Positions 13,901-28,337 are shown, counted from the first letter of the stretch. The stretch: 64,000 nt of DNA from Halorubrum distributum JCM 10118 (GCF_000337335.1 NZ_AOJN01000049.1:339885-403884); one strand, 5' to 3'. The notes: generated from the sequence alone by a model not told the origin. A program made the numbers and translations.

Positions 13901-15772
13901 CTACTCCACCGTCACGCTCTTCGCGAGGTTCCGCGGCTTGTCGATCGACCGGTCCTTGTCGTTGGCCACGTGGTACGCGAACAGCTGGAGGTAGACGTTC
14001 GCGACCAGCGGCTCGACGAGCCCCACGTCCGGAACCGGCAGCGACACGTCGAGCGTGCCGTATTCCTCGCCCGCAGACACGCAGCCGATCGCGGGCGCGC
14101 CGCGGGTCTGCGCCTCGGTCACGTTGTTCATCGTCTCGTCGGCGCGCGCGCCGTCGGTCAGCACGGCCAACACAGGCGTGTCGGGCGTCACCAACGCGAG
14201 CGGGCCGTGTTTCAGCTCGCCGGCGGCGAACCCCTCGGCGTGGTCGTAGGAGATCTCCTTGAGCTTCAACGCACCCTCCAGCGCCACCGGCACGCCGAGC
14301 TGCCGGCCGACGAAGAAGAACGCCTCGCTGTCGCCGTACTCGGTCGCAGCCTCGCGCACCTTCGGTTCCGCGTCGAGCACCTGTTGGACCGCGCCGGGGA
14401 GATCGCGGAGCCCTTCCAGGACGGGTCGCGCGTCGGCGGCCCCCAGCGCGCCGCGCTCGCGGCCGATCGCCACCGCGAGCATCGTCAGCGTCGCCACCTG
14501 CGAGGCGAACGTCTTCGTCGCCGCGACGCCGATCTCGGGGCCAGCGCGGATAAACGCGGTGTCGTCCACCTCGCGCGTGACGGTGCTACCGAGGGTGTTC
14601 GTCACGGCGAACGTGCGCGCGCCGGCGGCGTTCGCGCGCCGGACCGCGCCAAGCGTGTCCGCGGTCTCGCCGCTCTGGGTGACGGCGACGACCAGCGTTC
14701 GGTCCGGGCTGCGGCCGGCGCCGAACTCGTACTCGCTGGCGATCTCGACGGTCGCGCGGACGCCAGAGAGTTCCTCGAACAGCTGCGCGGCGTACCGCCC
14801 CGCGTAGTTGGAGGTGCCGCAGGCGACGATCTGGATCTCTTCGAGATCGGCGAGAAAGCCCGGCGGGAACGAGACGTCGAGGTCGACGTCGCCCCCATCC
14901 ACGTCAAGTCGCCCCGCGATGGTCTGACGCAAGGCCTCGGGCTGCTCGTGAATCTCCTTGCGCATGTAGTGCTCGTAGCCGCCCTTTTCGGCGGCGTCGG
15001 CTTCCCACGTCACCGTCTCGACGCCACGATCGACGAGGTCGCCGTCGGCGTATATCTCGACGCCGTCGGCCGACAGCGCCGCCACGTCGCCGTCTTCGAG
15101 GTAGGTCACGTCGCGGGTGTGCTCGAGGAAGGCCGTCACGTCGCTGGCGACGAACGTCGCGTCGTCGTCGCGGCCCAACACGAGTGGGCTCCCGCGGCGC
15201 GCGACGACGATTTCGTCTTCCCCTTCGCGGACCGCGCAGATCGCGTAGCTCCCCTCCAAGCGGACCTCGACGGCGCGGACTGCGTTGAGGAGGTCGCCCT
15301 CGCCGCGCTGCGCAGCGAGTTCCTCCTCAATCAGATGCGGGATGACCTCCGTGTCGGTGTCGCTGGTGAACTCGTGGTCAGCCAGCTCGCGTTTGAGCGC
15401 CTCGTGGTTCTCCACGATCCCGTTGTGAACGACTGCGACGTCGCCGGCGCAGTCCGTGTGCGGGTGGGCGTTCGCGTCGGTCGGCGGCCCGTGCGTGCTC
15501 CAGCGCGTATGGCCGACCCCGAGCGTCGCGTCGGGCACGTCGGGCACGGTGAGGTTGTCGACCTCGCCGGACCGCTTCGCAACGGTGAGCCCGCTCGTTT
15601 CGCCGACGAGCGCGACGCCCGCTGAGTCGTAGCCGCGGTACTCCAGGTTGCGGAGCCCCTCGTGGACGATATCGCCCACGCTGGCGACGCCGCCGTTGCC
15701 GGCAGCGGCACCCGCATCGTCATCCTCATCCAGGGTGATTCCATCGCCGATGTAGCCGGTGATCCCACACAT
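13901..15772 (-). CDS. glmS: Glutamine--fructose-6-phosphate aminotransferase (isomerizing)
   Basis: This 623-residue protein begins MCGITGYIGDG, so Cys2 is the N-terminal nucleophile of the glutaminase domain once Met1 is removed; this fixes the start. The class II amidotransferase half contains the expected GHTRWSTHGPP and VVHNGIVENHE motifs. Two SIS (sugar isomerase) domains follow, with ACGTSNYAGR and TQSGETADT, then the C-terminal KPRNLAKSVTVE tail that closes the active site in GlmS. It makes glucosamine-6-phosphate from fructose-6-phosphate and glutamine, the first step to UDP-GlcNAc. A polar insert near residues 18-30 slightly lengthens it. It lies 2 bases from the nucleotidyltransferase gene and is probably in the same operon. 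Confidence 0.96.
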   Translation of the reverse strand: MCGITGYIGDGITLDEDDDAGAAAGNGGVASVGDIVHEGLRNLEYRGYDSAGVALVGETSGLTVAKRSGEVDNLTVPDVPDATLGVGHTRWSTHGPPTDANAHPHTDCAGDVAVVHNGIVENHEALKRELADHEFTSDTDTEVIPHLIEEELAAQRGEGDLLNAVRAVEVRLEGSYAICAVREGEDEIVVARRGSPLVLGRDDDATFVASDVTAFLEHTRDVTYLEDGDVAALSADGVEIYADGDLVDRGVETVTWEADAAEKGGYEHYMRKEIHEQPEALRQTIAGRLDVDGGDVDLDVSFPPGFLADLEEIQIVACGTSNYAGRYAAQLFEELSGVRATVEIASEYEFGAGRSPDRTLVVAVTQSGETADTLGAVRRANAAGARTFAVTNTLGSTVTREVDDTAFIRAGPEIGVAATKTFASQVATLTMLAVAIGRERGALGAADARPVLEGLRDLPGAVQQVLDAEPKVREAATEYGDSEAFFFVGRQLGVPVALEGALKLKEISYDHAEGFAAGELKHGPLALVTPDTPVLAVLTDGARADETMNNVTEAQTRGAPAIGCVSAGEEYGTLDVSLPVPDVGLVEPLVANVYLQLFAYHVANDKDRSIDKPRNLAKSVTVE

Positions 15773-15774
15773 GG

Positions 15775-16950
15775 TTACCCCCTCCGCACGACCGCACCCG
15801 ACTCGACGCGGCCGTCGAGCACGACCCCCGCGTCGGCGTCGACATCGTCGCCGACGACCGCGCCGTCGGTGAGCGTCGATCCCGCGCCGACGGCAGCGTT
15901 GTCGCCGACCACGCCGGCGAGTTCGACGCCGTGGTGGACCGCGTCGCCAACGACGACCGTCGCCGGCCCGCCCGCGATCGTCGCGTTCGGGCCGATCCGC
16001 GCGTTGCCGGCGACGATCGCGTCCCGGACGACCGCGCCCGCGCCGATCACGGCGTCGGGGAAGACGACAGCGTTCTCGACCACCGCGCCCGCCTCGACCG
16101 TCGCGTTGCTGCCGAGCGAGGTGCTGCCCCCGAGTGTGACGTTCGGCCCGACGCGCACGTTGCCCGCGAGCGCCACGTCGTCGGCGACCGTCACCGAGTC
16201 GCCGAGGGTAGGACCGTCCGGATCTAACGCCTCGGACTCTCCGATCAGCCCTGCGTTGACGGTCAGTAGGTCCCAGAGGTTCGACACGTCGAGCCAGCGC
16301 CCGTCGTAGCGGACCGCCGACAGCGTCTCGTCCGCGGCGAGCTCGTTGAGCGTCGCCGTGATCGCCAGCTCGCCGGTCGCGTGCGTCTCGCGGATCGCGT
16401 CGAACACGTCCGTGGAGAGGCCGTACACGCCGGCGTTGATCTGGTTGGTCTCGACCGGTCCCTCCGGCTTCTCGTCGATGGCCGTCACGCGGTCGCCGTC
16501 GAGCGTGACGACGCCGTACTCGCGCGGAGTCGCCGCGGACGTGACCGCCATCGCGGGGAGGTCGCCGTCGAGCGCCCGGTCGCGCATCTGGGTGACGACC
16601 GACGGCTCGACGATCCGGTCGCCGTTGAGCACGACGAACGGGCCGTCGACGACCGGCTCGGCCTGGAGGACGGCGTGGCCGGTCCCGAGCTGCGTGGTCT
16701 GTTCGACGTACTCGATCGTGACGCCCCAGTCGTCGCCGTCGCCGAAGTGGTTCCGGATGCGCTCCTGCTCGTAGCCGACGACGAGGACGATCCGGTCAAT
16801 CGCCGTCGCCGTGACGGCCTCAACGACGTGTTCGAGCAGGGGGCGGTTCGCCACGGGGACCATCGGTTTCGGGCGTCGATTTGTCAGCGGCGCCAACCGC
16901 CGTCCCTCACCCGCGGCGAGGATCACCGCGGTTACGGAGTCCGTAGTCAT
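15775..16950 (-). CDS. Sugar-1-phosphate nucleotidyltransferase with left-handed beta-helix
   Basis: About 391 residues. The frame is open further upstream, but the ATG at 16948-16950 leads directly into VTAVILAAGEGRRLAPLTNRRPKPMVPV, described here as the G-x-G-x-R-L nucleotide-binding loop plus the RPKP lysine of NDP-sugar pyrophosphorylases. Further elements are VLNGDRIVEPSVV and the C-terminal string of hexapeptide repeats (G-x-x-V, V-x-x-G) of a left-handed beta-helix. It would activate a sugar phosphate, perhaps glucosamine- or glucose-1-phosphate. It is coupled to glmS (2-base gap). Since a better GlmU candidate lies at 24241, this one may use another sugar or nucleotide. Confidence 0.88.
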   Translation of the reverse strand: MTTDSVTAVILAAGEGRRLAPLTNRRPKPMVPVANRPLLEHVVEAVTATAIDRIVLVVGYEQERIRNHFGDGDDWGVTIEYVEQTTQLGTGHAVLQAEPVVDGPFVVLNGDRIVEPSVVTQMRDRALDGDLPAMAVTSAATPREYGVVTLDGDRVTAIDEKPEGPVETNQINAGVYGLSTDVFDAIRETHATGELAITATLNELAADETLSAVRYDGRWLDVSNLWDLLTVNAGLIGESEALDPDGPTLGDSVTVADDVALAGNVRVGPNVTLGGSTSLGSNATVEAGAVVENAVVFPDAVIGAGAVVRDAIVAGNARIGPNATIAGGPATVVVGDAVHHGVELAGVVGDNAAVGAGSTLTDGAVVGDDVDADAGVVLDGRVESGAVVRRG

Positions 16951-17041
16951 ATCGTACCCGTGTCCCGCCCGGGTGTTAAATCGCTCGCGCAGTGGCGAGC
17001 CGTTGGAGAAGAGTAAAGTATCGAACGTGTCTACGGTGACC

Positions 17042-17422
17042 ATGTCGAAATCGGCCGTCATCGCGGACGACGACGAGACGATCCGGTCGATCCTCCAGTA
17101 CAAGCTGTCGAACGCGGGCTACGACCTGACGGTGTGTCACGACGGCGAGGAGTGTCGACAGGCGCTGAACGAGGACGCGGCGGCCCCCGACGTCGTGGTC
17201 CTCGACGTGATGATGCCCCGGATGAAGGGCACGCAGGTGCTGCGGGCGATCCGGCGCGGCGAGCTCGCCGTCGCCCCCGACGTTCCGGTCGTGATGCTCA
17301 CCTCGCGCGGACAGGAGGCCGACGTGTTGGAGGGGCTCGACTCCGGCGCCGACGAGTACCTCACGAAGCCGTTCAGTCCGAACGAACTGCTGGTCCGCAT
17401 CGACCGACTGGTCGGGGAGTGA
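17042..17422 (+). CDS. Stand-alone response-regulator receiver protein (CheY-like)
   Basis: This 126-residue protein is a receiver domain only. Asp9/Asp10/Asp11 form the acidic pocket (AVIADDDE), Asp55 in VVVLDVMMPRMKG is the phosphoacceptor, Thr87 in VVMLTSRG and Lys109 in YLTKPF are the conserved switch residues. There is no DNA-binding output domain, so it must act by protein contact. The next gene (HEAT-like protein) starts 2 bases after its stop, and the synthase gene overlaps that one, so this is the first gene of an operon for a processive glycosyltransferase. It probably relays a signal from a histidine kinase, perhaps the one at 20702-21865, to the synthase complex. The ATG at 17042 was chosen because it precedes the first beta-strand directly. 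Confidence 0.93.
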   Translation: MSKSAVIADDDETIRSILQYKLSNAGYDLTVCHDGEECRQALNEDAAAPDVVVLDVMMPRMKGTQVLRAIRRGELAVAPDVPVVMLTSRGQEADVLEGLDSGADEYLTKPFSPNELLVRIDRLVGE

Positions 17423-17424
17423 GC

Positions 17425-18693
17425 GTGCCGCTCGCGTTCCAGACCGCGGCGGCGTCGGTTTATGTCCCGGCCACCGATGCCCAGTCGCGGGCGCTCGCGC
17501 TTGCCGTCGTCGTGCTCGGTTCGCTGCTGGTCGCGGCGGCGGTCATCACCCTCGGTTACTCGGCGTTCGCGGCCCGCCGGCGCCGGCGCCGAGAGCCGAT
17601 GCGCGCCGAGCTGCGGTCCGAGCTGCTCGACCGGCTCTACGGGCGCGGGGATCCGGCGTGGGACGAGTGGGTCGCCGGCCGCTCCGCGGCCGAACGCGAC
17701 GAGCTGGAGTCGGTCCTCGACGTGTACCTCCGCGAGCTCGACGGCCGCGACGCCGCGACGCTGGCCGGGCTCGGGCGGGCGCTCGGCCTCGCCGAGCGGT
17801 CGCGCCGCCACGTCGCCGAGGGCGACTACTGGGCCCGGAGCCACGCGCTGGTCTGGCTCGCGCTGCTCCGCGACGCCCCCGACCGCGACCTGCTCCGAGC
17901 GCACTGTACCGAGACGCCGCGCGAGCGCGCCGCGGCCGCCCGCGTGCTGTACGCGGCCGGGACGGACGACTGCGCGACGACCGGCGTCGACCTGCTGCTC
18001 CGCGACGACCCCGTGCCGTTCTCGGTGTTCGGCGTCGACACGCTGTACCGCGTCGCCGAGCGCGACCCGGGCCCGTTCTTCGACCGGGCGGCCGCCGACT
18101 TCGCGACGTGGCCGCCAGCGCTCCAGCGACAGGTGTTGCTTGTCGTCCGTCACCTCACCACCGTGGTCGGGGGCGCCGACCTCTCGTGGGTCGTCGCGGC
18201 GCTGTCGAGCCCGGACTCGAGCGTGCGGGCGGCCGCGTGGCGGGCGCTCGGCGCGTACGGCTGGAACCGGCGGCTCCGCGACGCGGTCGATCTTGAGGCG
18301 ATCCCCGACGAGCCGGCGCCGGCGGTCCGCGCCGACGCCTATCGGGCGCTCGGCGTGTGGGGCGACGCGCCAGCGCTCGCGGCGGTGGAAGCGGCCGGGA
18401 CGGTCGACCCGGACACGCGGGCGCAGGTCACCGCCGCCGAGACGCTGGTCGCCCAGCGCGGGCCGGGGGCCGTGCCCGCGACGAGCGACTCCCCGGGTTC
18501 CGCCGACCGAGCGGCGGACGCGACGGCTGGTCCCGCCGACGAGACGACCGCCGCCGCGCCGGCGGCCCCCGCTCGGGAGGCGGCCCCCTTCGATGTCGCG
18601 TGGGCGTGGGCGGCCGAACACGCCCGCTTCGACCGGCTGGCGCGCGACATCTCGCAGGACCGCGAGCGGCTGTACGACGAGGTGCGCGGATGA
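17425..18693 (+). CDS. Membrane-anchored HEAT-like repeat protein
   Basis: About 422 residues from a GTG at 17425, two bases after the receiver gene stops. One N-terminal membrane segment (residues about 18-45, LALAVVVLGSLLVAAAVITLG) is followed by a basic stretch and a long helical, alanine-rich cytoplasmic region with repeated 'R-A-x-A-x-R-A-L-G-x-x-G' units (for example VRAAAWRALGAYGW and VRADAYRALGVWGD). These read as HEAT or PBS-lyase-like repeats, which usually form protein-interaction surfaces. A Pro/Ala/Thr-rich linker comes before a final helical segment. It overlaps the synthase start by 4 bases (ATGA). The likely role is a scaffold linking the receiver protein to the synthase. Confidence 0.82.
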   Translation: MPLAFQTAAASVYVPATDAQSRALALAVVVLGSLLVAAAVITLGYSAFAARRRRRREPMRAELRSELLDRLYGRGDPAWDEWVAGRSAAERDELESVLDVYLRELDGRDAATLAGLGRALGLAERSRRHVAEGDYWARSHALVWLALLRDAPDRDLLRAHCTETPRERAAAARVLYAAGTDDCATTGVDLLLRDDPVPFSVFGVDTLYRVAERDPGPFFDRAAADFATWPPALQRQVLLVVRHLTTVVGGADLSWVVAALSSPDSSVRAAAWRALGAYGWNRRLRDAVDLEAIPDEPAPAVRADAYRALGVWGDAPALAAVEAAGTVDPDTRAQVTAAETLVAQRGPGAVPATSDSPGSADRAADATAGPADETTAAAPAAPAREAAPFDVAWAWAAEHARFDRLARDISQDRERLYDEVRG

Positions 18694-20690
18694 CGACGCT
18701 CGAGAGTGTCGGGACCACGCTGGTCGTCGGGTCGGGCGTCTTCATCGTCACGTACTACCTGCTGATCAACGCCGGCTACCTGCTGATTCACGTCCTCGCG
18801 CTGTTCCAGCTCCGCGACAGCGTCCGCGAGTCGTCGTGGGACCCCTCGTTCCGCGCCTTCGACAGCCCGTTCTACCCCGGCGTGGCGATGGTCGTGCCCG
18901 CGTACAACGAGGCAGCCAACATCGTCGAGAGCGTGCGCTCGATGCTCGCGCTCAACTACCCCGACCAGGAGATCGTCGTCGTCAACGACGGGTCGTCGGA
19001 CGCCACCCTCGACCGGCTCGAAGAGGCGTTCGGGCTGCGCCCCGTCGACGCCGAGGTCCCGTACGACGTGCCCTCGGAGCCGATACGCGGCGTGTACCGC
19101 TCGGCGACCCACGAGAACCTGCTGGTCGTCGACAAGGAGAACGGGGGCAAAAGCGACGCGCTCAACGCAGGGATCTGGCTCACCGACAAGGAGCTGTTCT
19201 GCGCGGTCGACGCCGACACCGTGATCGACCGCGACGCGCTGCTGGACGTCGTCGTGCCGTTCCTTGAAGACCCCTCGCGGACGGTCGCCAGTGGCGGGAC
19301 CATCCGGGTGGCCAACGAGTGCGTCATCCAAGACGGACAGGTGAAAGAGATCAACCTCCCGAAGACCGGCCTCGCGGGGGTCCAGGTGATGGAGTACCTG
19401 CGTGCGTTCTACTCGGGCCGGCTGGGGCTCGCCCGGCTCAAGGGGCTGATCCTCATCTCGGGCGCGTTCGGCGTATTCCGGACGGACCGCGTCCGCGAGA
19501 TCGGCGGCTACCGTCACGACACGATCACGGAGGACTTCGACGTGGTCGTCCGCCTCCACGAGCACCTCTCGGACAACGACGTCGACTACCGGATCGAGTT
19601 CGTCCCCGAGCCCGTCGCGTGGACGGAGGTGCCGGAGTCGCTCCGGTCGCTGGGCCGCCAGCGGCGCCGCTGGTACCGCGGGATGCTGGAGACGGTGATC
19701 GCCAGTCGCGGCCTCTTCTTCCGCCGGCGCTACGGCCGCGTCGGCACGGTCGTGCTCCCGTTCTTCACCGCCGCGGAGGCGCTCGGCCCGCTCATCGAGG
19801 GGTTCGGCTACGTCCTGCTCCCGCTCGGGTGGTACCTCGGCATCCTCAACGTCGAGTTCTTCCTCACCTTCCTGCTGCTCACCGTAGGCGTCGGCGTCTT
19901 CCTCTCGTGGTTCGGCGTGTTCAGCGAGGTGTGGAGCTACAACCGCTACGAGTCGCCGTGGGACGTCGTTAGGCTGCTTTGGTACGGCATCTTGGAGAAC
20001 TTCGGCTACCGTCAGTGGAAGACGATCGTGGCCTGGCACGGGCTGATCGAGTTCCTCCGCGGCGAGCAGTCGTGGGGCGTGATGGAGCGACGCGGCTTCG
20101 GGGACGGGGAGTCCGAGAGCCCGGCGGTGGGCGCGGCCGCTGCGGCCGGCGGCGTGGCGGCGGGCAGCGGAGACGCGCCCGTGACGACGACAGGTGGCGA
20201 GACGGACGCCGCCGACGCGGGCGCGGCCGCCCACGACGACGGGGACGACGGCGGCTTCGTCTGGGTGGACTGGCTCGCCGACGAGCCCGGGACCGACGGG
20301 CTCCGGTGGCTCGACCGAATCGCGAGCGACGGGCAGCCCGGCGCGTTCGCGTCCGTCGCGGACCTGACCGTCGGCGTCGGCGAGGGCGGGTTCGTCTGGA
20401 CGGCCGACTTCTCGGCCGGCGGCGGCGACGGGGGGTTCGTCTGGGTGACCGATCCCGCGCTCGGCGCGGGCGAGGGGGGTTACGTCCTCGCGGCCGCGGA
20501 CGACGGGAGCGTGCGGCTCGCCGCGACGACGGACTTCTCGGAGGGCCTCGGCGACGGCGGCTTCGTCTGGACGACCGACCCGACGCTCGGTACGGGCGAC
20601 GGCGGGTTAGTGTGGGTCCGCGACGCCGCGGCCGGCGCCGGCGACGGGGGGTTCGTCTGGGTGATCGACGCGGCCGACCCCGCCGAGTAG
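18690..20690 (+). CDS. Processive family-2 glycosyltransferase (polysaccharide synthase) with GGFVW repeat tail
   Basis: This 666-residue membrane protein has every hallmark of a processive GT2 synthase (cellulose, hyaluronan, chitin or PgaC type). They are VVPAYNEAANI (68-78), VVNDGSSD (97-104), the VDADT D-x-D (173-177), TED (280-282) and QRRRW (324-328, the QxxRW motif). A membrane segment occupies residues 10-40 and several more lie at about 350-445. Beyond residue 470 a linker leads to an unusual tail (about 518-666) with seven G-x-G-D/E-G-G-F/Y/L-V-W units, mostly spaced 15 residues. It is the third gene of a coupled operon with a receiver and a HEAT-like protein. With GlmS, GlmM and GlmU encoded nearby, UDP-GlcNAc is a plausible donor, but the product is not proven. 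Confidence 0.92.
   Translation: MTTLESVGTTLVVGSGVFIVTYYLLINAGYLLIHVLALFQLRDSVRESSWDPSFRAFDSPFYPGVAMVVPAYNEAANIVESVRSMLALNYPDQEIVVVNDGSSDATLDRLEEAFGLRPVDAEVPYDVPSEPIRGVYRSATHENLLVVDKENGGKSDALNAGIWLTDKELFCAVDADTVIDRDALLDVVVPFLEDPSRTVASGGTIRVANECVIQDGQVKEINLPKTGLAGVQVMEYLRAFYSGRLGLARLKGLILISGAFGVFRTDRVREIGGYRHDTITEDFDVVVRLHEHLSDNDVDYRIEFVPEPVAWTEVPESLRSLGRQRRRWYRGMLETVIASRGLFFRRRYGRVGTVVLPFFTAAEALGPLIEGFGYVLLPLGWYLGILNVEFFLTFLLLTVGVGVFLSWFGVFSEVWSYNRYESPWDVVRLLWYGILENFGYRQWKTIVAWHGLIEFLRGEQSWGVMERRGFGDGESESPAVGAAAAAGGVAAGSGDAPVTTTGGETDAADAGAAAHDDGDDGGFVWVDWLADEPGTDGLRWLDRIASDGQPGAFASVADLTVGVGEGGFVWTADFSAGGGDGGFVWVTDPALGAGEGGYVLAAADDGSVRLAATTDFSEGLGDGGFVWTTDPTLGTGDGGLVWVRDAAAGAGDGGFVWVIDAADPAE
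20236..20687 (+). repeat. 15-residue GGFVW coding repeats in the synthase C-terminus
   Basis: Seven related units lie in the C-terminal tail of the GT2 protein. The clearest are GVGEGGFVWTADFSA, GGGDGGFVWVTDPAL, GLGDGGFVWTTDPTL and GTGDGGLVWVRDAAA, each 15 residues; the fourth unit is longer and degenerate (GGYV). The repeats alternate Gly/Asp turns with a hydrophobic strand, suggesting a beta-rich stack. DNA copies differ in wobble bases, so selection on the protein is likely. Confidence 0.85.
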
Positions 20691-20701
20691 TCCACCGGCA
20701 A

Positions 20702-21865
20702 TCAGTCCGCGGCCAGCGCCTCGTGGACCGGCTCCGCGGCGTTGACGTCGCTCACCGCGAAGCGGGTCCCCTCGTCGCTGCTGTCGACGGCGAGGTCCCA
20801 GCCGTGGCCCGAGATCACGCGCTCGACCACGAGGAGGCCGAGCCCGAACGACTTGATGTTCTCCGCGTCGGCCGCGGTGAGGGCGTGTTCCACGTCCGTC
20901 GGGAGCCCCGGCCCGTCGTCCGCGACCGCGAAGCCGCCCTCGTCGCCGGTGACCGTCACCGCGACGTCCGGGCCGCCGTGTTCGACGCAGTTACGGAAGA
21001 GGTTCTCGAAGAGCCGCTGAAGCCGCATCTCGTCGGCGAGGACGGTCGTCCCCGTCGCGATGTCGACGGACAGCGTCGCGTCGCGCGTCCGCACCGTGTC
21101 CCAGGCGTTCCGGACGACTCCATCGAGGTCCACCCGCGTCCGCTCGCCGACGTCCGTCCCCTCCTTCGCCAGCATGAGGCACTCGGCGATCATCGACTCC
21201 ATCCGGTCGAGCGCGCCCCGGACGCGATCGAGGAACTCGGCCGCCTGCCCGCTGACGTGGTCCTGTGCGAGCTCCGTGAACCCGATCGCCCCCGACAGTG
21301 GGTTTCGGAGGTCGTGGGCGACGATGCCGGCGAACTCGTCGAGCCGCTCGTTCTGCTCGCGGAGTTCGGCGTAGTGCTTCTGCCGTTCGAGCTCGCTGCC
21401 CACCCACTCCGCGAGCACCGCGACGAAGTCGCGCTCAGACTCCGTGATCGGGTCGTTGCGCGGCTCCGCGTCGGAGAAGCAGAGCGTCCCGTACGTCTCG
21501 CCGTCGATGTCGACTGCGGCGCCGACGTAGCAGTGGAGCCCGGTCGTCTCCAGCGCGTCGTCGTCGCGGTACTCGCTGTCGCGCGCGTCAGCGAAGCCGA
21601 GCGGCTCGCCGCTCTCGACGACGTGGCGACACCACGTCCCGTTGAGGTCGACGACGCCCCTCCGGGCGTAGGGGCCGCTCTGGATGTTCGTCTCGACCAC
21701 CTCGTACCGGCCGTCGCCGGTGTACGAGAGCACGCCGTTGTCGACGCCGAGGTACTCCCGGCCGACGTCGATCGCCTTCCGAATGCGCTCTTCGGCCGAG
21801 AGGTCGGTCGCGGTCAACTCCAGCAGGCTCTTGAATGGATCAGCGGGGACCGTATGCGATGACAT
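20702..21865 (-). CDS. Soluble GAF-domain sensor histidine kinase
   Basis: About 387 residues from the ATG at 21863-21865; an upstream in-frame extension is basic and unlike the family. A GAF domain (residues about 25-160) with LCFSDAEPR and a Cys/His-containing segment comes first, followed by a coiled linker, then the H-box FAGIVAHDLRNPLSGAIGF (phospho-acceptor His184), an N-box LFRNCVEHGG, and ADDGPGLP plus FGLGLLVVERV of the ATPase domain. No membrane segment is seen, so it senses an internal signal. It ends 11 bases from the convergent synthase gene and diverges from the glycosidase-like lipoprotein gene. It is a natural partner for the lone receiver at 17042, though this is inferred from location. 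Confidence 0.93.
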   Translation of the reverse strand: MSSHTVPADPFKSLLELTATDLSAEERIRKAIDVGREYLGVDNGVLSYTGDGRYEVVETNIQSGPYARRGVVDLNGTWCRHVVESGEPLGFADARDSEYRDDDALETTGLHCYVGAAVDIDGETYGTLCFSDAEPRNDPITESERDFVAVLAEWVGSELERQKHYAELREQNERLDEFAGIVAHDLRNPLSGAIGFTELAQDHVSGQAAEFLDRVRGALDRMESMIAECLMLAKEGTDVGERTRVDLDGVVRNAWDTVRTRDATLSVDIATGTTVLADEMRLQRLFENLFRNCVEHGGPDVAVTVTGDEGGFAVADDGPGLPTDVEHALTAADAENIKSFGLGLLVVERVISGHGWDLAVDSSDEGTRFAVSDVNAAEPVHEALAAD

Positions 21866-21984
21866 GGTGAGCAAGCAGGTCGTTACCGACGGTAGGTGCG
21901 CCCGTCTGATAAAAGCGCGAGTTCGGTTCGACGGCCGCCCCGTCGGAGAAGTAGGCTTAACCATCTCCCACCGTAGGTGAGACT

Positions 21985-24216
21985 GTGCGCAGACGCCGTT
22001 TCCTGGGCCGCGTCGGGGTGGCGGGGGCGGTCGGCACCGCCGGCTGCGGCCTCCGCGACGACGCCAACGGGTCGGGAGGCGACGGTCCCTCCCGGCAGTT
22101 CCGCATCGGCGACGACGGCTTCGAGGTCGCGGTCGACGGCGGCGGCTTCGAGCCCCTGTCGGTCCGCGGCGTGAACCTCGGAATGGCCAAGCCCGGGCGG
22201 TTCCCGGGCGAGGCGGCGATCACCCGCGCGGAGTACGACCGCTGGCTGGAACTGATGGGCGAACTGAACGTCAACGTCGTCCGCGTGTACACCGTCCACC
22301 CCCCGGCGTTTTACCGGGCGCTCGCGGCGTACAACCGCTCGCACGCGGAGCCGATATACGTCCTCCACGGCAACTGGATCGGCGAGGAGACCCTCCGCGA
22401 GGCGGGCGACGCGACCTCGCTGTCGGCGGCCTTCGACCGCTCGATCCGACAGGTCGTCGACGCGGTCCACGGCGCGACGACCGTCAAGCCGGAGCCCGGC
22501 TACGCGAGCGGGACGTACGACGCGGACGTGAGCGACGCCGTCCTCGGGTACATCGCCGGCATCGAGTGGCCGCCGGCGGTCGTCGCGGAGACGGACCGGG
22601 TGAACGCGCCGGGCGGCTACGACGGCGAGTTCCTCGCCGCGCCCGCCGGCTCCCCGTTCGAGGCGTGGCTCGCCGCCCGCCTCGACGCGGTCGTCGCGTA
22701 CGAGGCCGACGAGTACGACGCACAACGGCCCGCGGCGTTCACGAACTGGGTGACGACCGACCCGCTCGAACACCCGTACGAGCCGTTCCCGAACGAGGAC
22801 GCGGTCTCCGTCGACCCCGACGCCGTCGCCGCGACGGACGCGTACGACGCCGGGACCTTCGCCGCCTACCACGTCTATCCGTACTACCCGCCGCTGTTGA
22901 ACGAGACGCCCGAGTACGTGGACTACGAGGACCACCGCGGCGAGCCGAACAGCTACGCGGGCTACCTGAACGACCTCGTCGGGGCGACCGACCACCCGCT
23001 GCTCGTCGCGGAGTTCGGCGTCCCCGCGTCCCGCGGGATCGCGCAACGAGACGTCCACGGCCGCGACCAGGGACACCTCACCGAAACCGAGCAGGGCGAG
23101 ATCCTCGCCGCGATGTACGCGGACATCCGCGAGGCCGGGACTGCGGGCGGCGTCGTCTTCAGCTGGCACGACGAGTGGTTCAAGCGGACGTGGAACCTCG
23201 CGCCCTTCTCGGACCCGAACCGGCGGCCGTTCTGGTCGAACGTCCAGACGCCGGAACAGCGGTTCGGGCTGCTCGCGTTCGACCCGGCCGATGCGGTGCC
23301 GCTGGACGGATCGCCCGAGGCGTGGGCGGACGCGACCGCCGCGACGCCCGAGCGCGACCCGCTCCGGCTCGGCGACGGCGCCGACCCGGCGCGCGAACTG
23401 ACCGCGGTCCGCGCGACGAGCGACGCGGCGTACCTCAACGTCCGGCTCGAGTTCGTGGAGCTGGACGGCGAGCCGGACTGGGACGCGACCAACTACCTCA
23501 TCTCGCTCGGGACCACCGGCTCAGACGCGCGGGCGCTCCCGTACGGGGTCGGCGGGGCGGCGCCCGCCGACTTCGTCGTCCGACTCGGCGGCCCCGACGA
23601 CTCGCGGATGACGGTGTACCCCCGCTACGACGCCTTCGCGTTCGAGTACGGCGCCGAGGCCGGCCTTGACCTCGACCGGTACCGAGATCCCGACCCCGGC
23701 GACTTCACCCCGCTCCGGCTGGTGATCAACCGCGGGTACACCGTGCCGGTGACGGACGAGTACGTCCCCTTCGAGTCGGTGGAAACCGGGCGGCTGCGCT
23801 ACGGGAACGGGAACCCCGAGTCGCCAGAATACGACTCGCTCGCCGACGTCCACGTCGCCCCGTCGAGCGACGCGATCGAGCTCCGAATCCCATGGGGGCT
23901 GCTCAACGTGGCCGACCCGAGCCGTCGGCGGCGACTCGCCGACCTCTGGACCGACGGGCTCGACACCTACGAGACGATCGAGTCGATCGACGTCGCCGCG
24001 GCCTCGTACGTCCCCGCGGATGCCGAGGGGACGGCACGGCCGCTCGACGCCCCCACGAACCTCACGCACGCGGTCCCGGGCGTCGCGGACGGCGCGCTGT
24101 CTTCTCGCGCGTTCGAGCCGCCGACGTGGGACCGCCCGGCGTACAGCGAGCGGCTCAAGGAGTCGGCAGACGCGGTCGCCGACGTCTTCGATCGGTACGC
24201 GCGGCGAGAGGAGTGA
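21985..24216 (+). CDS. Tat-exported lipoprotein, glycoside-hydrolase-like
   Basis: This 743-residue protein starts at a GTG (21985) with a short RRRRFLGRVGVAGAVGTAGC signal: twin arginines, a hydrophobic stretch and a lipobox ending at Cys21, so it should be a Tat-exported membrane lipoprotein. The next 400 residues resemble a (beta/alpha)8 glycosidase of the GH2/GH5/GH72 type. It has SVRGVNLGM, NVNVVRVYTVHP, a GIEWPP strand (Glu near residue 193), LLVAEFGVPASRG (Glu near 343, the nucleophile position) and FSWHDEWFKRTWN. A beta-rich C-terminal domain follows. Placed beside the processive synthase, it may trim or remodel the polymer outside the cell. The substrate is unknown. Confidence 0.82.
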   Translation: MRRRRFLGRVGVAGAVGTAGCGLRDDANGSGGDGPSRQFRIGDDGFEVAVDGGGFEPLSVRGVNLGMAKPGRFPGEAAITRAEYDRWLELMGELNVNVVRVYTVHPPAFYRALAAYNRSHAEPIYVLHGNWIGEETLREAGDATSLSAAFDRSIRQVVDAVHGATTVKPEPGYASGTYDADVSDAVLGYIAGIEWPPAVVAETDRVNAPGGYDGEFLAAPAGSPFEAWLAARLDAVVAYEADEYDAQRPAAFTNWVTTDPLEHPYEPFPNEDAVSVDPDAVAATDAYDAGTFAAYHVYPYYPPLLNETPEYVDYEDHRGEPNSYAGYLNDLVGATDHPLLVAEFGVPASRGIAQRDVHGRDQGHLTETEQGEILAAMYADIREAGTAGGVVFSWHDEWFKRTWNLAPFSDPNRRPFWSNVQTPEQRFGLLAFDPADAVPLDGSPEAWADATAATPERDPLRLGDGADPARELTAVRATSDAAYLNVRLEFVELDGEPDWDATNYLISLGTTGSDARALPYGVGGAAPADFVVRLGGPDDSRMTVYPRYDAFAFEYGAEAGLDLDRYRDPDPGDFTPLRLVINRGYTVPVTDEYVPFESVETGRLRYGNGNPESPEYDSLADVHVAPSSDAIELRIPWGLLNVADPSRRRRLADLWTDGLDTYETIESIDVAAASYVPADAEGTARPLDAPTNLTHAVPGVADGALSSRAFEPPTWDRPAYSERLKESADAVADVFDRYARREE

Positions 24217-24240
24217 GCCCGCCCCCGCGTCGACCGGGCG

Positions 24241-25449
24241 CTACTCCGAGAGCCGGTCGCGCGTCAGCGCCTCGCCGGGCCCGGTCGTCTCCCCCGCGCC
24301 GAGCACCACGCCCGCGTTCAGCGCGGTGTTGATCCCCGTCTTCGCCTCATCGCCGACGATCGCGCCCAGCTTCCGCCGGCCGGTGTCGACGCGGTCGCCC
24401 TTCACCGTCTGCCGGACGTTCTCGCCGTCGTGCCGCAGGTTGGCGACGTTCGTCCCCGCGCCGAAGTTGACCCCGCGACCGAGCACGGAGTCGCCGACGT
24501 ACGAGAGGTGGCCGACGGAGGCGTCCGCCATCAGCACCGAGTTCTTCACCTCGACCGAGTGGCCGACGTGCGCGTCGGGCCCCACGACGGTCGCCCCGCG
24601 GACGTATGCGTTCGGTCCCACGTCGGCGCCCTCGCGGATCAGTGCCGGTCCCTCGATATAGGCACCCGAGCGGACCCGCGCGCCCTCCTCGACGACGACC
24701 GGTCCGTGGAGGTGGACGTCCTCCTCGACGGTGCCCGAAACCTGAACCTCGTCGGCGAGCTCTGCGAGCGTCAGCTCGTTCGCCTCCAACAGCTCCCAGG
24801 GGCGCCCGACGTCGAGCCAGGTGCCGTCGTACCGCGCTACGTCGATCCGGCGGCCGTCGCCGAGCAGGAGGTCGATCGTCGTCGTGATCTCGTACTCCCC
24901 GCGCTCGCTTTCGGGCGTGCGGTCGATGTAGTCGAACACCTCCGGCTCGAACGCGTAGCAGCCGACGTTCGCGAGGTTCGTCGGCGGGTCGGCGGGCTTC
25001 TCGACGATGTCCGCGAGCGAGCCGTCCTCGGCGGTCGAGAGCACGCCGTACGCTCGCGGGTCGGGGACCTCGGTGGCCGCGACGGCCGGCGCGCCCGCGT
25101 CGGCGAGCGCCTGAGGCAGCGACGCGTCCACGACCACGTCGCCGTTGAGCACGAGGAAGTCGTCGTCGACGACGGGTTCGGCCTGCGCCACGGCGTGGGC
25201 GGTACCCAGCGCTTCCGCCTGCTCGACGTAGTGGACCGGGCGGTCGCGGTACGACTCGCCGATCGCCTCCCGGATCGCCTCGCCGCGGTAGCCCGTCACG
25301 ACGACGAACTCGTCGACGACGTCGCGGGCCGTGTCGAACACCCGTTCCAGCAGCGAGCGGTCCCCGACGGGGAGAAGCGGTTTCGGTCGGCGGTCCGTCA
25401 GCGGTCGCATCCGGGTCCCGCGGCCGGCCGCGAGCACGACTCCGTACAT
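24241..25449 (-). CDS. glmU: Bifunctional GlmU-type UDP-GlcNAc pyrophosphorylase/acetyltransferase
   Basis: About 402 residues from the ATG at 25447-25449. It opens MYGVVLAAGRGTRMRPLTDRRPKP, described as the nucleotide-binding loop G-x-G-T-R-M plus RPKP lysine. VLNGDVVVDASL is the metal-binding strand. The C-terminal beta-helix ends in VGDSVLGRGVNFGAGTNVANLRHD, then KGDRVDTGRRKLGAIVGD and TGINTALNAGV. This last block, with its N-L-R-H-D and R-R-K-L-G-A elements, matches the archaeal bifunctional type (ST0452-like) that acetylates GlcN-1-P and then makes UDP-GlcNAc. It lies 84 bases from the glmM gene on the same strand. Acetyltransferase activity is inferred. Confidence 0.87.
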   Translation of the reverse strand: MYGVVLAAGRGTRMRPLTDRRPKPLLPVGDRSLLERVFDTARDVVDEFVVVTGYRGEAIREAIGESYRDRPVHYVEQAEALGTAHAVAQAEPVVDDDFLVLNGDVVVDASLPQALADAGAPAVAATEVPDPRAYGVLSTAEDGSLADIVEKPADPPTNLANVGCYAFEPEVFDYIDRTPESERGEYEITTTIDLLLGDGRRIDVARYDGTWLDVGRPWELLEANELTLAELADEVQVSGTVEEDVHLHGPVVVEEGARVRSGAYIEGPALIREGADVGPNAYVRGATVVGPDAHVGHSVEVKNSVLMADASVGHLSYVGDSVLGRGVNFGAGTNVANLRHDGENVRQTVKGDRVDTGRRKLGAIVGDEAKTGINTALNAGVVLGAGETTGPGEALTRDRLSE

Positions 25450-25533
25450 GTCCGAGGTCGACGAAGGGGCGGGGCTTATCGCCTGCGGTCGGCCGCGGCG
25501 GTCGCGGGTCGAGCCGCGCATCGATGTGGGTCG

Positions 25534-26874
25534 TCAGTCGAGATTCGCGGCAGCCCGCTCGACCAGTTCCCGCGCCGTCTCGAACAGCCCCTCCGCGTCG
25601 CCCTCGTCGCGCGCCTCCGCGGTGATCCGCACCAGCGGCTCGGTGCCGCTCGCGCGCACGAGGAACCAGCCCGCGTCCGTCCCGACGCGGATCCCGTCGA
25701 GCGTCGAGACGTCGTCGAACTCCTCGCCGGCCAGTTCCGCGACGCGCTCGACGGTCGCCCGCTTCGCGTCCGTCCGTATCGAGTCCCGGCGGATCGGGTA
25801 GTCGGGGAGGTCGTCGACGAGCGCGGCGAGCGACCCCTCGGCGCCGACGAGGGCGGTCAGGACGCACGCCGCGAGCGGCCCGTCGGGACAGAGCGTCCGC
25901 TCGGGCCAGATCCACGCGCCGCTGGGCTCGCCGCCGAAGGCGACCCCCGGCTTGGCGGCCTCGGCGGCGACGTACGCGTCGCCGACCGGCGTGTACGTCA
26001 CCTCGGCCCCCACGTCGGCGAGTGCGTCGGCGACGAGGAGGCTCGTGTCCACCGGGACCGCGACGCGGTCCCCGTCGCCGGCCTCGCGGCGGGCGAACAG
26101 CGCGAGCAGCGCGTCGCCGGCGACGAACCGCCCGCGCTCGTCGATCGCCATCATGCGGTCGGCGTCGCCATCGTGGACGACCCCGAGGTCGGCGTCGGTC
26201 GTCGCGACGACCTCGCAGGCGGTCTCGCAGTTTGCCGCGGTCGGCTCGCTGGGCCGCCCGGGGAACCGCCCGTCGCGCTGGCCGTTGAGCGTCTCCACGT
26301 CACAGCCGGCCGCGTGGAGCGCGTCGGCGGTGACGCGCCCGACGCCGTTGCCGAGGTCGACGACCACCGAGAGGTCGTCCGGGAGCGAGACCGACTCACG
26401 GAGCGCGCGCTCGTGGCGTCGTCGGGCGTCGCCGCCCGCGATCACGTCGTGCTCTTCGACCGTTCCTATCGCGTCGGCCGCCGCGAGGTCGAAGCTTTCC
26501 GCCTCGACGATGTCGGTAATCCGATCGTTGCGCTCCTCGCCGAACGCCCGCCCGTCGCTTCGCCACAGCTTGATCCCGTTGTCGGGCGCCGGGTTGTGCG
26601 ATGCGGTGACGACGACGCCGGCGTCCGCGCCCTCGCGATCGACCGCCCGCGCCACCGTGGGCGTCGCCTCGACGCCGACGTCGATCACGTCCGCGCCGCA
26701 CTCGGTGAGCCCCGCTGTGAGCGCCCGCGTGAGCATCCGGCCGCTGTCGCGGGCGTCGCGCCCCACCACGACCGTCTCCGCGCCGTCCGTCGCGAGCGCG
26801 CGCCCCACGTCGAGCGCGAGGGCGGCCGTCACATCCTCGCCGACGGGACCGCGAACGCCGCTGGTTCCGAACAT
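25534..26874 (-). CDS. glmM: Phosphoglucosamine mutase
   Basis: About 446 residues from the ATG at 26872-26874 (MFGTSGVRG, the normal start of archaeal family members). The active-site phosphoserine loop is VTASHNPAPDNG (Ser92), the metal-binding loop is VHDGDADRMMAID, the sugar-binding loop is FGGEPSGAW, and the phosphate-binding loop near the C-terminus is VRASGTEPLVRI. All four domains of the phosphohexomutase family are therefore present. It converts glucosamine-6-P to glucosamine-1-P, between GlmS and GlmU, whose genes are in the same region. A phosphomannomutase role cannot be excluded, but the gene context favours glucosamine. Confidence 0.9.
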   Translation of the reverse strand: MFGTSGVRGPVGEDVTAALALDVGRALATDGAETVVVGRDARDSGRMLTRALTAGLTECGADVIDVGVEATPTVARAVDREGADAGVVVTASHNPAPDNGIKLWRSDGRAFGEERNDRITDIVEAESFDLAAADAIGTVEEHDVIAGGDARRRHERALRESVSLPDDLSVVVDLGNGVGRVTADALHAAGCDVETLNGQRDGRFPGRPSEPTAANCETACEVVATTDADLGVVHDGDADRMMAIDERGRFVAGDALLALFARREAGDGDRVAVPVDTSLLVADALADVGAEVTYTPVGDAYVAAEAAKPGVAFGGEPSGAWIWPERTLCPDGPLAACVLTALVGAEGSLAALVDDLPDYPIRRDSIRTDAKRATVERVAELAGEEFDDVSTLDGIRVGTDAGWFLVRASGTEPLVRITAEARDEGDAEGLFETARELVERAAANLD

Positions 26875-26972
26875 ACCACGGTCGTCGCCGCCCACCGCAA
26901 AGACGGTTCGGGACGGCGGCCCGAACCGAATCGCTCCAAGGCTTTTACCGATCGAAACCCGCAGCCTCGCGC

Positions 26973-28337
26973 ATGGTCCCCGACCCCTCATCGGTCAGCA
27001 GACGGACGGTCTTGGCGACGCTCGGCGGCGGCGTCGCAGCGCTCGCCGGCGGCACCGCGGTCGTCGGCGCGACGGAGCCGACGGCGCTGCCGGACCCGAT
27101 CACGGACGCGGCGACGAAGTACTACCCGACCCCGCCGGAGGTCGACACGCTCTGGCGGCCGCCGGTGACCGAGGCGCACGCCCGTGCGGCCGTCGAGACG
27201 CTCGCGGAGACGGTCGCCGAGAGCCGGCGTCGGTGGGACGCGATCGGCGACGTCGACGACGAGGGCGCGCCGATCACGACGGATGCCGGCGGCTGGCTCG
27301 AGGACGCCCGCGAGGCGCTCGACGAGGGCGACCACGACACAGCCCTGTTCCGCGCGCGGTACGGCCTCCAGTTCGCGGGCGAAGCGCTGGGGTACGCCCG
27401 CGCCGAGCAGGACGCGATCGACCCGACCGACGTCCGGGACCGGGCGACCGCGCTGACGGAACGCGCGGAGTCGGTGGCGACCGACCTGCGCCCGTATCCG
27501 ACGACGGACCCCGCCCGCGACCTCGGGTGGTACGTCCGCATCGAGGGCGAGGTGCAGTCGGCGAGCGCGCTGGCGGCCCGCGCGCTCCCGGACGACACCG
27601 ACTCGGGGCAGAACGCCGACTCCGGGGGCCAAAGCGACGCCTCCGCCGACGCGATCGACCCGGAAGCCGCGGGTGAGGTGACGGCCGCGCTGCTCCGGGG
27701 CGAGGTCGACGCGATGACCGCGGAGCGGTATCGCGACATCCTTTTCGACCGCCTCGGGAGCGACACGGACCCGCACGCGGAGGCGTTGCGGACGGCCGCC
27801 GAGCGCTTCCGCGCCGCCCTCCCCGAGTACCCGTCCCGCGAGGACGCGCGAGCCCGGTACATCGGGGAGGTCGACCGGTACGGGCCGTGGGAGTTCGCGC
27901 ACTCGCGGCTGGCCCAGTGGTGTCTCGGGTCGACCGCGCCCGTGCCGTGGCGGACGCCGATCGACGCGGACCTGCTCGCGCTGCGGACCGTCGCGGTCTC
28001 GATCGGATTGGCGCGTCGGCGGGCCCACGAGACCGCGGTCGACCGGCTCGTCGTCGAACCGGACGACGACGGGTTCGACTCGGGCCACGCGCTCGCCGCG
28101 AAGCGCCGGGCGCACGCGATGTATCAGTCGGTCGTCGGGAGCGACCCGTCCCCGCTGCTCGTCACGCAGATCGGCCGCGCGGTCGAGGACCTCCAGGTCG
28201 TGGCGGTCGGATTCGGCGGCGGCCGCGACCGGCCGATGTGGCGCGAGCGGCTTGAGGCGTACCTCTACGCGCTGGTCGGCCGAGCGAAACTGGAGGCGTT
28301 CCCGCCGCTGCGCGACGCGATTCTCGATCCGGCGTGA
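26973..28337 (+). CDS. Tat-exported helical protein, function unknown
   Basis: This 454-residue protein starts with a Tat signal (SRRTVLATLGGGVAALAGG at residues about 9-27) without a lipobox cysteine. The mature part is mostly alpha-helical and acidic, with Ala- and Arg/Glu-rich helices, a YYPTPPEVDTLWRPP segment near the mature N-terminus and repeated helix pairs. No enzyme motif was found. It is divergent from glmM across a 98-base gap, and sits at the edge of the polysaccharide region, so it may be an exported partner of the polymer (anchor or binding protein). This role is inferred from location only. Confidence 0.75.
   Translation: MVPDPSSVSRRTVLATLGGGVAALAGGTAVVGATEPTALPDPITDAATKYYPTPPEVDTLWRPPVTEAHARAAVETLAETVAESRRRWDAIGDVDDEGAPITTDAGGWLEDAREALDEGDHDTALFRARYGLQFAGEALGYARAEQDAIDPTDVRDRATALTERAESVATDLRPYPTTDPARDLGWYVRIEGEVQSASALAARALPDDTDSGQNADSGGQSDASADAIDPEAAGEVTAALLRGEVDAMTAERYRDILFDRLGSDTDPHAEALRTAAERFRAALPEYPSREDARARYIGEVDRYGPWEFAHSRLAQWCLGSTAPVPWRTPIDADLLALRTVAVSIGLARRRAHETAVDRLVVEPDDDGFDSGHALAAKRRAHAMYQSVVGSDPSPLLVTQIGRAVEDLQVVAVGFGGGRDRPMWRERLEAYLYALVGRAKLEAFPPLRDAILDPA

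Follow-up and report, generated by a model that had tools for sequence, protein, structure and literature searches.

What does a lone receiver control when its gene lies directly ahead of those for a membrane protein and a polysaccharide synthase? This question is raised by a stretch of 64,000 nucleotides from Halorubrum distributum JCM 10118 (GCF_000337335.1, NZ_AOJN01000049.1:339885-403884; hereafter, the window), in which a two-component receiver (REC), a HEAT-repeat protein and a processive glycosyltransferase of family 2 (GT2) are encoded one after another. The original prediction for this locus, made from the sequence alone, posited an exopolysaccharide system with its own UDP-N-acetylglucosamine (UDP-GlcNAc) supply, in which the receiver may gate the synthase through the HEAT protein. 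We found that the REC-HEAT-GT2 cassette is a strongly conserved, cross-domain unit that is undescribed in the open-access papers searched. Our preferred reading, to which we assign a probability of about 0.58, is that the cassette is an exopolysaccharide module in which the phosphorylated receiver gates GT2 post-translationally via the HEAT scaffold.

Conservation of the cassette in Haloarchaea

The three genes are tightly packed. The receiver gene starts with an ATG at 17042 and stops with a TGA at 17420-17422, and the GTG start of the HEAT gene follows at 17425, after a gap of 2 bases. The HEAT gene, which stops with a TGA at 18691-18693, and the GT2 gene, which starts with an ATG at 18690 and has its stop codon at 20688-20690, overlap by 4 bases. 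Gene calls and Pfam agree with the original prediction on this anatomy, including the spacing and the overlap.

In a set of 145 genomes sampled from the whole class of Haloarchaea, the GT2 family, delimited at 48% identity or more, is patchily distributed, being represented in 23. The order of the three genes, the conservation of which was expected under the original prediction, is indeed largely fixed: REC-HEAT-GT2 is found in the same order and on the same strand in 21 of the 23 haloarchaeal loci, from several families, and in many bacteria. The two exceptions (numbers with the prefix L denote the collected loci) are L049, a Halolamina-type locus with HEAT-GT2 and upstream sequence that contains no receiver, and L057, in which GT2 is broken. 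Apparent frameshifts disrupt the GT2 frame at L057:6983-8095 and also at L054:6913-8336, through either decay or sequencing error. As a control, a HEAT homologue was sought within 1.5 kb of the nearest other haloarchaeal GT2s and was present in 0 of the 7 loci. An independent annotation of a Haloarcula halophila plasmid lists a response regulator, HEAT, GT2 and a GAF kinase in this order. The cassette receivers of other haloarchaeal families are 49-64% identical to that of the window, whereas the nearest other receivers of the source genome are only 30-39% identical to it. One genome harbors a second, divergent REC-HEAT-GT2 copy (L055:5489-8369), the receiver of which lacks the conserved lysine.

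In the window, the three-gene set is adjoined, as predicted, by genes for a histidine kinase with a GAF domain and for a glycosidase-like lipoprotein that is secreted. Their co-occurrence with the cassette is partial: the kinase is found near it in 13 of the 23 haloarchaeal loci and the lipoprotein in 11, but not in the respective remaining loci. In genome G465, the module is split, with the kinase-lipoprotein pair beside glmS on one contig and REC-HEAT-GT2 on another (L155, L156), which sets the core apart from these accessories.

The cassette in bacteria

Outside Haloarchaea, where the scan covered one genome per species, GT2 relatives with 40-49% identity are present in many bacterial phyla and in one Thermoplasmatota bin. 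The HEAT profile includes bacterial members and was tested on 41 non-haloarchaeal loci left out of its building; in 40 of these, a HEAT homologue is encoded directly upstream of GT2. Pfam HEAT repeats score above the cut-off in 9 of the 10 upstream proteins tested. Among 62 non-haloarchaeal loci, the receiver is encoded adjacent upstream in 37 and 0.3-1.7 kb upstream in 11, and 3 are cut by a contig end. The adjacent receiver is a lone REC in 16 of the 37 loci and, in others, forms the C terminus of a larger protein. An independent annotation of a Mesorhizobium ciceri plasmid lists, in this order, a response regulator, a YaiO barrel, HEAT, GT2 and an Hpt protein. Two rounds of searching detected YaiO-like barrels in up to 27 loci, with Pfam confirmation in L070; because these barrels accompany it, the cassette resembles, in diderms, synthase-dependent exopolysaccharide systems that include an export pore. 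Homologs of the lipoprotein are also encoded in the bacterial loci L073, L088, L099 and L131. A Planococcus plasmid (L167:1-7371) encodes a polyphosphate-polymerase-domain protein, DUF4956 and a CotH kinase family protein, followed by HEAT-GT2; its annotation lists no receiver.

In the unrooted GT2 tree, a fully supported branch separates the 33 haloarchaeal rows from the others, and the wider bacterial diversity suggests that the cassette moved from bacteria to Haloarchaea. An archaea-specific system is ruled out by the bacterial loci. The original prediction knew of no described archaeal system of this form; no description of the REC-HEAT-GT2 set was found in the open-access literature searched, subscription papers not being covered, but the system is not specifically archaeal, given its spread in bacteria.

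A predicted path from receiver to synthase

In the Pfam scan, the only domain found in the receiver is Response_reg (97 bits), which bears out the prediction that it carries no DNA-binding part. With its phosphorylation residues retained, it is a single-domain, CheY-like response regulator; among 67 cassette receivers, D55 is present in 66, and so is K109.

The HEAT protein (Pfam HEAT_2, 36 bits) was modelled by AlphaFold2 with a mean predicted local distance difference test score (pLDDT) of 91.9. In the model, a single long N-terminal helix (18-72) leaves the membrane and enters an alpha-solenoid. A fold search with this model retrieved alphaRep, importin and other HEAT/ARM solenoids, a generic result that points to no specific relative. 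Nearly all HEAT homologues possess a single N-terminal hydrophobic helix and then basic residues; because the basic residues come after the helix, the solenoid should be cytosolic and membrane-tethered under the positive-inside rule and, being so placed, could couple the receiver to the synthase. The Pfam scan detected no PilZ domain in either HEAT or GT2.

In GT2 (Pfam GT2 domain, 72 bits), the motifs D100, D174xD176, E281-D282 and Q324R325xR327W328 are invariant in 22 family members. Together with the transmembrane helices, these correspond to the D, DxD, (T/E)ED and Q(Q/R)xRW motifs of processive GT2s in the broad sense. The best NCBIfam model is PgaC/IcaA (TIGR03937; 138.6 bits against a cut-off of 422.3), followed by CelA/BcsA (TIGR03030; 60.7 bits against 699.1). 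Because both scores fall below the cut-offs, GT2 is classified from its sequence as a processive synthase outside the named equivalogs. A membrane GT2, a co-encoded inner-membrane partner (HEAT) and an export or hydrolase component (the lipoprotein and, in diderms, the YaiO barrels) jointly fit the definition of synthase-dependent exopolysaccharide systems.

Under our preferred reading, a histidine kinase would phosphorylate D55 of the receiver; in the window, the neighbouring GAF kinase is likely to be the cognate one. The phosphorylated receiver would dock on the cytosolic HEAT alpha-solenoid, which, held in the membrane by one helix, would pair with GT2 such that the synthase changes in activity or stability. 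GT2 would use a nucleotide sugar on the cytosolic side to build the chain and would extrude it, and, outside the cell, the lipoprotein hydrolase or, in diderms, a YaiO-type barrel would trim, release or export the polymer.

Several observations weigh against such gating. The receiver is not strictly required because two Halolamina loci (L049 and L064) and 11 of the 62 non-haloarchaeal loci, in which no receiver was found, have HEAT-GT2 alone. In the second haloarchaeal copy, L055, the receiver is degenerate. We looked for REC-HEAT and HEAT-GT2 fusions among the collected loci and found none; natural REC-GT2 fusions are likewise missing from this set. Finally, across 67 loci, a few of which duplicate a genome that is present in two collections, the pairwise distances are correlated (REC-HEAT, r = 0.83; REC-GT2, 0.80; HEAT-GT2, r = 0.92), but this demonstrates a stable unit and not contact, because operon co-inheritance gives the same pattern.

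The loci devoid of a receiver would also be compatible with HEAT-GT2 being a conserved synthase that the receiver does not contact, the latter being a relay intermediate, a sink or a regulator of another target that is merely co-expressed. In the same vein, several bacterial receivers are the last domain of Hpt-REC-GGDEF-REC proteins (L077, L104, L131 and, one gene further upstream, L070) or of multi-REC proteins, an arrangement typical of relays, and in bacteria the REC-GT2 distance correlation (0.71) is lower than that of HEAT-GT2 (0.90). However, in very distant phyla, the receiver gene abuts the HEAT gene directly, the two often overlapping by 4 bases; where the adjacent receiver is part of a multidomain protein, it forms the C terminus in those inspected; and the REC-HEAT distances are well correlated. 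We consider a receiver detached from the synthase unlikely.

The polymer and its sugar supply

The lipoprotein adjoining the cassette bears on the nature of the product. The window protein has no match in Pfam, its relatives reach GH113 at an E-value of 0.016 at best, and for the named CAZy families GH113, GH5 and GH157, no sequence match attains the family threshold. A PDB sequence search with the glycosidase profile yielded no match, and the placement comes from the fold search only. With the structure model (pLDDT 83.6), the top Foldseek matches are GH157, GH2, GH17, GH5 and GH113 (best E-value, 2e-11), with TM-scores that are low because of an extra domain and long gaps. All 17 archaeal and bacterial members compared share two candidate catalytic glutamates, E194 (in GIEW) and E343 (in AEFG), which occupy the clan GH-A acid/base and nucleophile positions, after strands 4 and 7. 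The lipoprotein thus models as a putative clan GH-A hydrolase. Enzymes of this clan mostly cleave gluco-, manno-, galacto- and xylo-linkages rather than GlcNAc linkages, and for this reason the partner enzyme appears to suit a beta-hexan better than poly-GlcNAc and leans against a product of the poly-beta-1,6-GlcNAc (PNAG) type.

Such a product was implied by the original prediction, whereby GlcNAc is polymerised from a dedicated, co-encoded UDP-GlcNAc supply. Apart from PgaC/IcaA being the top model for GT2 (139 bits, far below the cut-off of 422), this possibility draws on the glm genes, which occur at the flanks of the module in Halorubrum, arranged in two ways. In the window and in L035, L036, L150, L153 and L158, the five module genes sit between glm genes. 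In a second Halorubrum group (L037, L038, L157), the module adjoins a different, 66%-identical glmS, and because of this recurrence some neighbourhood preference is possible. However, in L148, L149, L151 and L154, which are from the same genus and lack the module, glmS, the GlmU-like gene and the GlmU gene lie next to one another. The source genome, an assembly of 68 contigs that is 99.6% complete, encodes one glmS, one GlmU above the cut-off and two GlmM. As glmS and GlmU are the sole bona fide copies and are contiguous in cassette-less relatives, a dedicated UDP-GlcNAc supply is not supported. Outside the genus, no glm genes lie beside the cassette, except for weak glmS/glmU-like matches (32-50%) in L047. 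We regard a PNAG-like system as rather improbable, somewhat more so than a receiver without contact.

Least probable of all is that GT2 makes a cell-bound glycan, such as a lipid, S-layer or wall decoration, in place of a free matrix polymer: no family member comes with a demonstrated capsule or polymer gene, and haloarchaeal GT2s for glycoprotein and lipid glycosylation are numerous, but the processive motifs with QRRRW and C-terminal transmembrane helices, the secreted GH-A hydrolase partner and the occurrence of YaiO barrels among diderm relatives all suggest that the chain is exported.

Limits of the module

Together with the kinase and the lipoprotein, the cassette makes up a five-gene module (Table 1). 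These genes are a 7.2-kb present/absent unit beside housekeeping genes, as same-genus genomes keep the glm genes contiguous without them. In a direct DNA comparison, 36 bases in L148 separate the breakpoints that match window positions 16989 and 24237. The system had been predicted to extend to 28337, well past the boundary found here, and to include a protein with a twin-arginine translocation (Tat) signal. This helical protein (26973-28337) has no Pfam match and no homologue in the neighbourhoods of relatives (0 in the 23 relatives' loci), and was rejected as a component.

In L152:2200-12600, from the same genus, the glmU-glmU junction carries a different insert of approximately 10.5 kb that does not contain the cassette; because another insert is held there, the junction may be an insertion hotspot. 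The C-terminal repeat tail of GT2, absent from the original prediction, has a repeat unit of about 15 residues and is restricted to some Halorubrum; no other copy of the repeat was detected in the source genome at an E-value of 1e-6.

Table 1. Features of the locus, in window coordinates
Feature	Position	Strand	Basis or remarks
Five-gene module	16990..24236	.	DNA similarity to cassette-less relatives L148, L149, L151 and L154 ends at 16989 and restarts at 24237-24245
Lone receiver (REC), 126 aa	17042..17422	+	Phospho-acceptor D55; D10/D11, T87, K109
HEAT-repeat alpha-solenoid (predicted), 422 aa, one N-terminal transmembrane helix	17425..18693	+	Pfam, AlphaFold2, fold search
Processive GT2 synthase, 666 aa	18690..20690	+	Pfam GT2 domain
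GT2 C-terminal tail, aa 482-666 (185 residues)	20133..20687	+	Seven GxGGFVW-type repeats
GAF-HisKA-HATPase histidine kinase	20702..21865	-	Pfam domains; open frame reaches 21964
Secreted lipoprotein, twin-arginine and lipobox-like Cys21, clan GH-A-like TIM barrel	21985..24216	+	Structure model, alignment
glmS	13901..15772	-	Flanking housekeeping gene, sole genome copy; outside module
GlmU-like sugar-1-phosphate nucleotidyltransferase	15775..16950	-	Below TIGR03992 cut-off; flank, outside module
GlmU	24241..25449	-	531 bits, TIGR03992; flank, outside module
GlmM	25534..26874	-	Above NCBIfam archaeal cut-off, one of two in genome; flank, outside module

Relation to known systems

Rather than being an archaeal oddity, the cassette represents a variant form of synthase-dependent exopolysaccharide system. 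It resembles the poly-beta-1,6-GlcNAc synthase PgaC/IcaA with PgaD, which is stabilised by cyclic diguanylate (c-di-GMP), in that a GT2 and a needed small membrane partner are encoded next to each other. However, a HEAT solenoid stands here where PgaD would be, c-di-GMP is replaced by a receiver, and no PgaB-type gene was recognised. The proposed mechanism parallels the role of PgaD for PgaC and that of c-di-GMP in other synthases (PMC8461298). The nearest solved structures are those of the cellulose synthase BcsA, which shares the GT2 core with the D,D,TED,Q(R)xRW motifs and transmembrane channel helices; unlike in BcsA systems, there is no PilZ domain here and no BcsB-like gene was recognised. 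In E. coli yaiO/yaiP, a YaiO barrel is encoded beside a GT2, as in the diderm relatives of the cassette, whereas haloarchaea have neither an outer membrane nor YaiO. To our knowledge, the E. coli set includes no HEAT protein or receiver.

For control by a receiver, the closest parallel is in Myxococcus xanthus, where the phosphorylated single-domain regulator EpsW directly activates the exopolysaccharide enzyme EpsZ (PMC12802240). There, as proposed here, a lone phosphorylated receiver turns on polysaccharide synthesis post-translationally. Unlike GT2, which does not belong to the monotopic phosphoglycosyl transferases and would be reached through an intervening HEAT protein, EpsZ is a phosphoglycosyl transferase of the Wzx/Wzy pathway that EpsW binds directly. 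Among the archaeal two-component systems surveyed in PMC5847659, REC is fused to BcsA-like GT2 in Methanobacteriaceae (REC-BcsA and REC-REC-BcsA, for example, MTH_548), and for the majority of REC-only regulators the survey notes that the gene neighbourhood is not conserved; it makes no mention of such a HEAT protein. Compared by published description only, these fusions are similar in joining an archaeal receiver to a PF13641 GT2 but consist of one polypeptide, with no HEAT protein.

Overall, the conserved unit, the REC-only receiver and the lack of PilZ in the original prediction stand, but its archaeal scope, the UDP-GlcNAc supply and the Tat protein do not. We see an even chance that REC-HEAT-GT2 is an undescribed major class of synthase-dependent exopolysaccharide machines, present across many phyla of bacteria and transferred to Haloarchaea, with REC/HEAT replacing the c-di-GMP/PilZ gate. 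Post-translational control of synthase-dependent polysaccharides has so far been described mainly via c-di-GMP. If the proposed mechanism is correct, a phosphorylated receiver with a HEAT scaffold would represent a second, general way to control such synthesis across two domains of life. It would provide a concrete target for archaeal two-component systems, which mostly have no DNA-binding outputs, and would account for how matrix synthesis could be switched in archaea that lack c-di-GMP.

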